From: Azospirillum sp. TSA2s
GTDB lineage: Bacteria; Pseudomonadota; Alphaproteobacteria; Azospirillales; Azospirillaceae
Assembly: GCF_004923315.1 (NCBI RefSeq)
Contig: NZ_CP039650.1
Coordinates: forward strand, 2,443,501-2,507,500
Reading direction: 5' to 3'
Length of the DNA stretch: 64,000 bases
A program made the translations under genes and the position numbers. Shown in pieces: positions 30,453 through 31,759 of the stretch (position 1 is its first letter; the number at the start of each line of letters is the position of its first letter). The notes under the pieces were generated by a model. That model saw only the letters and a list, made by a program, of their open reading frames with translations. It was not told the DNA's origin and made no database searches.

Positions 30453-30488
30453 CGAATGCGCAGGCGCTTTACAATGCCTGCGCATTCG
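30453..30488. promoter_or_regulatory. 13-base perfect palindrome with -10-like loop
   Basis: CGAATGCGCAGGC at 30453-30465 and GCCTGCGCATTCG at 30476-30488 are perfect complements around the 10-base loop 30466-30475, which contains TACAAT (30470-30475), a good -10 hexamer. TTGATC at 30444-30449 could be a -35 though the 20-base spacing is long. No T-run follows. It is either the glgP terminator or an operator over the asd leader promoter; position just before the leader peptide favours the second or both. Confidence 0.5.
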
Positions 30489-30502
30489 GATAAGAAGGCC
30501 CC

Positions 30503-30580
30503 ATGAACCGCAAGGCCATCACCACCACTACGACCAAAAAAGCGACTCGCTTCGGCGGGCAGCGGCGTGGTGTGTGCTGA
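30503..30580 (+). CDS. Putative Thr/Lys/Ile-rich leader peptide of asd
   Basis: A 25-residue open frame beginning MNRKAITTTTTKKAT and ending with TGA at 30578-30580. AAGAAGG at 30492-30498 is a suitable ribosome site. Six Thr, three Lys and one Ile make up 40 percent of it, with five consecutive Thr codons (30521-30535) followed by two Lys codons (30536-30541). Thr, Lys and Ile are all end products of aspartate semialdehyde, made by the gene that follows at 30719. This is the pattern of an attenuation leader such as E. coli thrL. Hairpins downstream support the idea. Translation and regulation are inferred. Confidence 0.65.
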   Translation: MNRKAITTTTTKKATRFGGQRRGVC

Positions 30581-30604
30581 TCGGATCGACCAGCGTTTCT
30601 TCCA

Positions 30605-30688
30605 CGAGGCAGGCCCCGCCGGACAACGGACGGGGCCTCGTCGTATCCGGGGTCCGCTGTCCGAACGACCGATAGGCCGGTCCGATCA
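30605..30688 (+). promoter_or_regulatory. Candidate attenuator structures before asd
   Basis: CGAGG (30605-30609) plus CCCCG (30614-30618) can pair with CGGGGCCTCG at 30631-30640, a strong terminator-like hairpin but without a T-run. Its loop and right side can instead join another structure: CGGACAACGGA at 30620-30630 pairs with TCCGCTGTCCG at 30653-30663 with one mismatch. In addition TGATCGGA at 30578-30585, which overlaps the leader stop codon, pairs perfectly with TCCGATCA at 30681-30688. Mutually exclusive hairpins next to a biased leader peptide are what attenuation predicts. The absence of a T-run leaves open translational or Rho-dependent versions. Confidence 0.5.
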
Positions 30689-30718
30689 ACAGTGCGATAG
30701 ACAGGACGGAACCCCGCA

Positions 30719-31759
30719 ATGAGCAGCAACAACGCCTCCGCTTCTTCCAAGTCCCTCCGCGTCGCCGTGGTCGGCGCCACCGGCGCCGTCGGCCGCGAGA
30801 TGGTCAAGGTCCTGCACGACCGCAACTTCCCGGTCGCCGAACTCGGCCTGTTCGCTTCCGAGCGCTCCGCCGGTAAGGTGCAGGAGACCCCCTATGGCGC
30901 CCTGACCCTGCAGGCCTTCGACGCCGCGGTGGTGAAGGGTTATGACGTTGTCCTGCTGGCGGTGTCGGGCGACTTCGCCAAGGCGCACGCCAAGGATCTG
31001 GCCTCGGCCGGCGCGCTGGTGATCGACAACAGCTCCGCCTTCCGCTACGACGCCGACATCCCGCTGATCGTTCCGGAAATCAACGCCCACGTCTTCCGCG
31101 AGGCGTACGCCGCCGGTTCGCGCCTGATCGCCAACCCGAACTGCACCACGGCCATCGCCGTGGTCGCGCTCGGGCCGCTGCACAAGGCCTTCGGCATCAA
31201 GCGCGCCATCGTCTCCACCTATCAGGCCACCAGCGGCGCCGGTGCCGAGGGCATGGCCGAGCTGGAGGAGCAGACGCGCAACCAGCTGGACGGCAAGCCG
31301 GTCACCAACAGCGTGTTCCGCCACCCGATCCCCTTCAACCTGATCCCCCAGATCGACGCCTTCCAGGAGAACGGCTACACGAAGGAGGAGATGAAGGTGA
31401 CGTGGGAGACGCGGAAGATCATGGAGGTCCCGGACCTGCTGGTCAGCTGCACCGCCGTGCGCATCCCGACCTACCGCGCCCATTCCGAAGCCATCACGCT
31501 GGAGACGATCCAGCCGGTCACGCCCGACGCCGCCCGCGCCGTCCTGGCCGATGCCGCCGGCGTGAAGGTGGTGGACGATCCGGCCAACGGCGCCTACCCG
31601 ATGCCACTGAACGCCACTGGCCAGTATGACGTCGAGGTCGGCCGCATCCGCACCAACGTGGTGTTCGGCGATCATGGCCTCGACCTGTTCGTCTGCGGCG
31701 ACCAGCTGCTGAAGGGCGCCGCCCTGAACGCCGTGCAGATCGCCGAGCTGGCCCTGTAA
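30719..31759 (+). CDS. asd: Aspartate-semialdehyde dehydrogenase
   Basis: Reduces aspartyl phosphate to aspartate semialdehyde, the branch point to threonine, isoleucine, methionine, lysine and diaminopimelate. 346 residues. Visible are the NADP loop [14 protein letters not shown] (about 15-28), the catalytic cysteine in NPNCTT (Cys142), and the substrate segments [12 protein letters not shown] and [13 protein letters not shown] 30719 has GGACGG upstream. It is preceded by a Thr/Lys-rich leader peptide and alternative hairpins, so its expression may be attenuated by end-product amino acids. A small hairpin follows the stop. Confidence 0.97.

Follow-up and report, generated by a model that had tools for sequence, protein, structure and literature searches.

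A candidate ribosome-mediated attenuator with threonine and lysine codons upstream of a second asd copy in Azospirillum

The leader of the thr operon in E. coli and other gammaproteobacteria encodes a short peptide rich in Thr (and Ile), folds into alternative hairpins and controls an aspartate-family target. Attenuators of the ilvGMEDA type are multivalent, a single leader responding to more than one product of a branched pathway. In Sinorhizobium meliloti, the trpL RNA is described as beginning at its own AUG (PMC7298713). In the same species, Ribo-seq and Western blot identified translation of the small frame SEP5, which has six Thr and three Lys codons and lies in the 5′-UTR of a gene that the authors name aspartate dehydrogenase; their brief account reads it as possibly a leader peptide and as conserved only in Sinorhizobium (PMC10117765). 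The main text of a broad survey of attenuators does not contain the word 'asd' (PMC2965389). In the literature searched, which did not extend to subscription papers such as the comparative study of Vitreschak et al. 2004 (where some of this may be mentioned), no leader-peptide attenuator of an alphaproteobacterial asd, thrS or dapA was found beyond SEP5.

Here we analyse a locus of Azospirillum sp. TSA2s (NZ_CP039650.1). The window is the whole 64,000-nt stretch of DNA analysed, and the window locus is the leader plus asd inside it. Comparison of related sequences leads us to propose, with a probability of roughly 0.8, that the window locus is a ribosome-mediated attenuator of asd whose leader peptide carries Thr and Lys codons. 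It would very probably be an attenuator of a known kind in a new setting. The features are the following:

30468 to 30473, + strand: −35-like box TTTACA of a probable promoter
30491 to 30496, + strand: −10 region TAAGAA
30503 to 30580, + strand: leader peptide frame, MNRKAITTTTTKKATRFGGQRRGVC, present in 44 of the 44 Azospirillum genomes with this asd copy
30521 to 30547, + strand: control codons Thr7-11, Lys12-13 and Thr15 (codon 14 is Ala), with Thr kept by different codons and the rare ACT and AAA enriched
30546 to 30550, + strand: strand 1, which can form hairpin 1:2 with 30555-30559, closing a UUCG loop
30551 to 30559, + strand: strand 2, UUCGGCGGG, with strand 1 or strand 3 as alternative partner; CGGCGGG is invariant in 21 rows
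30611 to 30638, + strand: terminator-like hairpin 3:4; strand 3 of the putative antiterminator is its 5′ arm, 30615-30623
30627 to 30637: strand 4, the 3′ arm of hairpin 3:4
30639 to 30648, + strand: tail after the hairpin, without a U-run (U-tract score 2.61)
30648 to 30661, + strand: strand 5, a possible anti-SD strand, paired with 30700-30716 in the minimum free energy fold of 30639-30724
30700 to 30716, + strand: strand 6, partner of strand 5, around the asd SD (AGGACGGA, 30703-30710)
30719 to 31759, + strand: asd, second (paralogous) copy

Upstream of the leader frame is a glycogen phosphorylase gene, in the same orientation as the frame and asd. An earlier note, made from the letters of this DNA, had placed asd directly after the leader, and a profile search agreed: the gene starting at 30719 scored above the cut-offs of both NF011456 and TIGR01296 (379.3 bits for the latter, cut-off 324.2). 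A canonical asd copy is present elsewhere in the genome; this second-copy status, the −35-like box and strand 2 with its two partners were absent from the earlier note. The 25-codon frame that it had read at 30503-30580 is there as described, with six Thr, three Lys and one Ile in 10 of its 25 positions. Among 45 genomes searched, 44 had this asd at ≥80% identity, all of them with a leader of 25-27 codons and a Thr run, and the 45th (G014) had only the other asd copy, which is 48% identical. Six further family members had a close asd match (E ≤ 1e-120): four of genus g13 with a leader (e.g. MNRSRAIKTTTPKTTRCGG), and two outside g13 whose asd is 69-70% identical and has no such leader upstream. 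The records that carry this asd in A. brasilense, A. argentinense and strain TSH58 (NZ_CP032346.1, NZ_CP022367.1 and five others) are filed as plasmids and measure 1.75-2.05 Mb, so that the second asd there is on a chromid-size replicon.

Aligning the regions upstream of asd, as had been suggested, showed that the Thr and Lys codons are conserved in Azospirillum and g13, and the leader is indeed a short frame rich in codons for products of the pathway. Codon 11 was Thr in 19 of 19 distinct 25-codon leaders, with three different codons used; at Thr7-10 these leaders had Ile, or more rarely Met or Ala, as substitutes, and g13 leaders also had Lys, Pro, Ser and Cys at these positions. Codons 12 and 13 were AAA in 18/19 and 19/19 of them. 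Over 30 distinct leaders Lys was AAA in 48 of 73 codons and Thr was ACT in 50 of 180; in three neighbouring genes the corresponding figures were 4 of 70 and 2 of 84. The idea of an asd attenuator that senses Thr, Lys and Ile finds good comparative support for Thr and Lys, on account of the conserved and rare codons, the exclusive pairings and the gene-matched composition given below; Ile falls away as a sensed product, being unenriched (4.6%, 2.1% and 7.1% of leader residues before asd, thrS and dapA-type genes). It is likely that the asd leader senses two products, Thr and Lys.

An RNA model (R1) built from 21 Azospirillum and g13 leaders matched in 41 of 385 genomes of the class at E ≤ 0.01, and a second model (R2), built from 39 rows that R1 had found, including one chance antisense fragment, matched in 76 of 385 at E ≤ 0.001; both counts are biased to Thr-rich leaders because the training leaders were Thr-rich and, for R2, included loci detected with R1. 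We read 68 model-match loci, comprising 24 asd (3 of them Azospirillum or g13), 14 thrS, 10 dapA-type and 20 other or unclear targets; weaker R2 matches lie outside these 68. Profile checks of a few targets gave 436 bits for thrS (cut-off 384), 410 for asd (324), and 227 and 206.3 for two dapA-type genes (206.15), the latter barely over; the remaining dapA-type genes are so assigned from the look of their N-terminus, and the thrS assignments are backed by the thrS model search described below. Composition and structure were counted over 56 loci (32 asd, 14 thrS and 10 dapA-type), whose asd part consists of 11 representatives of the 44 extracted Azospirillum-group leaders and 21 others. The loci L067, L069, L072, L074 and 16 of L121-L158 were left out of these counts, the leader of L139 is unsure (TTG start), and the rows behind all comparative counts are related by descent.

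Within residues 2-18, asd leaders contained 187/544 Thr (34%) and 78/544 Lys (14%), thrS leaders 81/238 Thr (34%) and 8/238 Lys (3%), and dapA-type leaders 7/169 Thr (4%) and 20/169 Lys (12%). Fisher tests gave 1.4e-6 for Lys in asd vs thrS leaders and 7e-18 for Thr in asd vs dapA-type leaders, treating residues as independent, which they are not. Leader codon content tracks the regulated gene. Because the RNA models had been trained on Thr-rich leaders, retrieval by protein was added, the query being six aligned attenuated Asd proteins and the mark of a leader a short frame with ≥7 Thr/Lys in 12 residues. Among the best 80 of 591 loci, 13 had a Thr/Lys leader, all under alphaproteobacterial titles (seven Bradyrhizobium, Yoonia, Marivivens, Acidisphaera, a Rhizobium MAG and two other MAGs; one MAG locus, L257, is apparently from the same genome as L128). 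No other of these 80 reached seven Thr/Lys; four loci with alphaproteobacterial titles (L255, L259, L283 and L308) were among those without a leader. The gene-to-gene contrast in composition and the protein retrieval depend little or not at all on the training bias of R1 and R2. Rfam, whose families include the thr leader and the T-box, gave no match at the gathering score for the window and 15 related loci, and at E ≤ 1 just two miRNA families far below that score.

The same scaffold was also seen with other leaders. Those of L133, L140, L144 and L124, before apparent ABC-transporter ATPase genes, are not rich in Thr or Lys (e.g. MFTSPKLCIVTLMEAMTRPLGERVR); L126 has MSEFRFSGMWFSYWSTGRG, with Phe, Trp and Tyr; L067 and L122 have leaders with NRNH or NRKH, and L069 and L072 have MLALRHLNKAAMTRSGG.

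TTGAC or TTTAC was found 29-40 bases 5′ of the leader start in 47 of the 56 leaders (background 0.007). The −10 region, recognized by eye in the window and its relatives, lies 17 bases past the −35 box, and this spacing would place the transcript start at or just before the leader AUG. An SD-like 4-mer before the leader start was rarer than in the background (3 of 56 leaders vs 0.199); the window, with AAGG, is among the three, and the leader ribosome site proposed earlier (AGAAGG, around 30493) is accordingly unconserved. The pattern over the 56 loci, a −35 box about 35 bases 5′ and no SD between it and the frame, suggests that the leader is translated from a leaderless start; it would be read without a ribosome site because the transcript probably begins at or next to the AUG.

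Strand 2 occupies codons 17-19 of the leader. In the window, hairpin 1:2 (30539-30563) has −9.7 kcal/mol (z −1.7), and 14 of 200 shuffles were equally good. The GC-rich hairpin that the earlier note had seen within 30605-30640 is robust, with −28.6 kcal/mol for 30605-30644 (z −4.8) and 0 of 200 shuffles equal to it. Covariation was analysed on the alignment A3, which is CM-fitted to 1:2 and 3:4 and contains one chance antisense fragment (L018 +). Hairpin 1:2 was paired in 92.8% of cells, and 13 cells had changed on both sides, compared with 2.3 in shuffled and 0-4 in slid versions; hairpin 3:4 was paired in 99.3%, with 4 cells changed on both sides. Covariation was thus above the controls for 1:2, and 3:4 stays paired where both of its sides have changed; helix 2:3 showed no covariation above shuffles on A3, since its strands hardly vary and divergent rows are badly aligned or absent there.

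The duplex energy of 2:3 beat the mean of shuffled leaders in 32/32 asd loci (p<0.05 in 22) and in 13/14 thrS loci (p<0.05 in 6); for the window alone p was 0.093. Own strands paired better than swapped ones in 41 of 56 loci (p 0.002), and in the divergent loci L078, L154 and L155 the helix is formed with other letters. Before dapA-type genes, 4 of 10 loci were above the shuffle mean and none had p<0.05, so that 2:3 is not claimed for them. Mutually exclusive pairings 1:2, 2:3 and 3:4, with strand 1 beside the control codons, were found over the asd loci. The likely antiterminator is helix 2:3 and not the competing pairing of 30620-30630 with 30653-30663 named in the earlier note, which can be drawn; in the window, the hairpin loop and 3′ arm pair with the downstream strand no better than in shuffles (p 0.58). 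A further proposed pairing, of 30578-30585 at the leader stop with 30681-30688, does exist in the window, where it beats shuffles (p 0.003) and can be extended to 11 pairs (30578-30588 with 30678-30688), but of 21 distinct Azospirillum-group sequences just 9 show it at a significant level; in the L024 type this long-range pairing uses other letters.

Sequence comparison supports the leader with its codon content, both hairpins (1:2 and 3:4) and, over the asd and thrS loci, the antiterminator helix; on these elements the following scheme is predicted. With charged tRNA-Thr and tRNA-Lys plentiful, the ribosome would reach the stop codon; once it had passed, strand 1 (30546-30550) would pair with 30555-30559, leaving strand 3 free, hairpin 3:4 would form and asd expression would be low. 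With Thr or Lys scarce, the ribosome would wait in the Thr7-Lys13 run and cover strand 1, strand 2 (30551-30559) would pair with strand 3 (30615-30623), hairpin 3:4 would be blocked and asd would be expressed. A ribosome with codon 11-13 in its A site should mask strand 1 with strand 2 still mostly accessible, and one waiting at Thr15 should mask strand 2 too; this geometry predicts that Lys12-13 and Thr11 matter most. In this way leader and hairpin switch would probably raise asd when the amino acids of the pathway run short. The step that cuts asd off could be termination or hiding of the SD.

In many relatives the hairpin is followed by a U-run. In the window it is not, as the earlier note had remarked, and the U-tract score of 2.61 compares with background 95th and 99th percentiles of 2.67 and 3.29. 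Scores above the 99% background were found in 13/14 thrS, 9/10 dapA-type and 13/32 asd loci, and in 4 of 11 Azospirillum-group representatives, the window not among them; L079, and perhaps L156, was wrongly anchored for this score, and L079 was re-anchored for the SD and duplex tests. The window locus thus does not have the intrinsic terminator with a U-run that defines the transcriptional subtype, which we do not claim for it because its score is below the background cut. In the lineage of the window, the same sensor could act on translation instead, strand 5 (30648-30661) hiding the asd SD in strand 6 while hairpin 3:4 terminates poorly; under starvation the freed strand 4 (30627-30637) would capture strand 5 and release the SD. 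Such an output, which we consider somewhat unlikely, would fit the weak U-tract of the window and 19 of the 32 asd loci, and SD pairing is in excess over the 32 asd loci (0.74 vs 0.61 in shuffles, Wilcoxon 8e-4) and the 14 thrS loci (0.85 vs 0.67, 1e-4), with p<0.1 singly in 15 of 56 loci. Likewise, pairing 4:5 is above the shuffle mean in 26/32 asd and 14/14 thrS loci (p<0.05 in 6 and 9).

The window alone, however, is at shuffle level for SD pairing (0.51 vs 0.51, p 0.49) and for 4:5 (p 0.58), and the fold of 30639-30724 is no better than that of shuffles (z −0.97). Lack of a U-run does not go with a larger SD excess (0.72 vs 0.58 in the 21 loci without one, 0.81 vs 0.69 in the 35 with one), and SD pairing over the dapA-type loci is not above that in shuffles (Wilcoxon 0.11). 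When strands 5 and 6 were swapped between species, own strands were better in 13 of 25 cases (p 0.12; permutation p 0.11 for 12 representatives), and the four Azospirillum-group representatives with a U-tract above the 99% background also speak against a translational output. Because SD and 4:5 pairing in the window are at shuffle level, strand swaps reveal no covariation and the excess is no larger without a U-run, a translational cascade before asd is put forward only as a hypothesis.

A search of the 385 class genomes with asd_B (E ≤ 1e-85) found the gene in 326, of which 47 list ≥2 copies. All 24 class-sample genomes in which an attenuated asd was read are among these 47, as is G284, which was found via its protein. 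The attenuated asd is an extra paralogue in every genome checked. In a tree of 81 Asd proteins, 31 canonical copies, none attenuated, lie on one side of a branch (100/99), and the 33 attenuated rows fall into three lineages, which also contain 17 rows classed as other copies that lack a leader (upstream read for all but L231; the check for a second copy did not cover the genomes of L049 and L050). The leader label requires 4-5 gains or losses on this tree. Outside the Azospirillum/g13 clade, the five nearest rows are four with no leader (L049, L050, and L232 and L233, read through L201 and L202) and the unread L231. Among 20 further copies from two-copy genomes, some probably canonical, 18 were readable and one (L204) had a leader.

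The possibility that any asd carries such a leader was rejected, as 0 of 18 readable canonical copies (20 fetched from attenuator genomes) show one; the highest Thr+Lys count upstream of these copies was 5/10 (L226), apparently the end of the upstream gene. A leader before the thrS of Azospirillum in general was rejected too: 16 genomes had no Thr-rich short frame (at most 2 Thr in 10 codons). One Azospirillum, G011 (L136), has the Thr leader MRTHPVLRSTATTTTTATGG before its only listed thrS, which is full-length.

In 12 of 14 genomes, the thrS with the leader is likewise a second copy and is shortened at its N-terminus. These are G310, G450, G414, G370, G373, G282, G342, G118, G247, G343, G432 and G418; the match of the extra copy to the model begins only at about position 160-170, and 11 of the 12 genomes also have a full-length copy. 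In G370 the other thrS matches are pieces on two contigs.

A wider reading joins these observations into one leaderless alphaproteobacterial scaffold whose codons are rewritten for the gene that follows (both Thr and Lys where this is the extra, branch-point asd, Thr where it encodes the short additional threonyl-tRNA synthetase, Lys where it is of the dapA type) and, in the Azospirillum lineage of the window, would have lost the terminator tail and act by a translational cascade of six strands in which the 3′ arm of the hairpin would mimic the asd ribosome site. We regard this combined reading as unlikely. Less probable still is that Thr is the only signal and that the Lys codons serve other ends, e.g. 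AT-rich spacing. The Thr run is the longest feature and two of 32 asd leaders (L028 and L044) have a single Lys, but Lys is far more frequent before asd than before thrS on the same scaffold (14% vs 3%), codons 12 and 13 remain AAA in 18/19 and 19/19 leaders, and codons 11-13 would be the best placed to mask strand 1.

We think it quite improbable that the leader peptide or a short RNA acts in trans, in the manner of peTrpL/rnTrpL of Sinorhizobium meliloti: an attenuated RNA with its 5′ end at the leader AUG would look like rnTrpL as described in PMC7298713, but the peptide tails vary by lineage, and it is the control codons and pairing strands that are conserved. That a chance frame stands before an ordinary terminator or a conserved untranslated region can practically be dismissed, for although GC-rich hairpins are common in genomes of this sort and the window alone gives modest p values, the gene-matched codon content, the protein retrieval and the 18 readable canonical copies of the same genomes without such a leader all contradict it.

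If the attenuator reading of the window locus is true, a branch-point enzyme is controlled by a leader peptide that senses two end products together. It would also give a reason for keeping a second Asd and, elsewhere, a second, shortened threonyl-tRNA synthetase, as reserve copies for starvation. Since the family varies its codons, tail type and target within a common scaffold, it offers a natural series in which to study how the signal and output level of an attenuator change, and it predicts leader peptides, probably unannotated, in many genomes.

Among described systems, SEP5 resembles the asd leader as a translated Thr/Lys frame in a 5′-UTR, with a target named aspartate dehydrogenase; its brief account does not describe an RNA structure or connect the frame with thrS, dapA or other orders (PMC10117765). 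The trpL/trpE(G) attenuator of S. meliloti, as described in PMC7298713, is experimental, whereas ours is predicted only, and it reads Trp instead of Thr and Lys; the likeness lies in an alphaproteobacterial leader with an RNA that begins at the AUG, a terminator and an antiterminator, all predicted here. The asd locus differs from the thr leader in its single asd target, its setting in Alphaproteobacteria and its pairing of Thr with Lys and not with Ile, as well as in having no conserved leader ribosome site, a weak U-run in the window and no Rfam match at the gathering score. It shares with it a short Thr-rich peptide, alternative hairpins and an aspartate-family target. Compared with attenuators of the ilvGMEDA type, which read branched-chain amino acids, the asd leader would read the Thr and Lys branches of the aspartate family.
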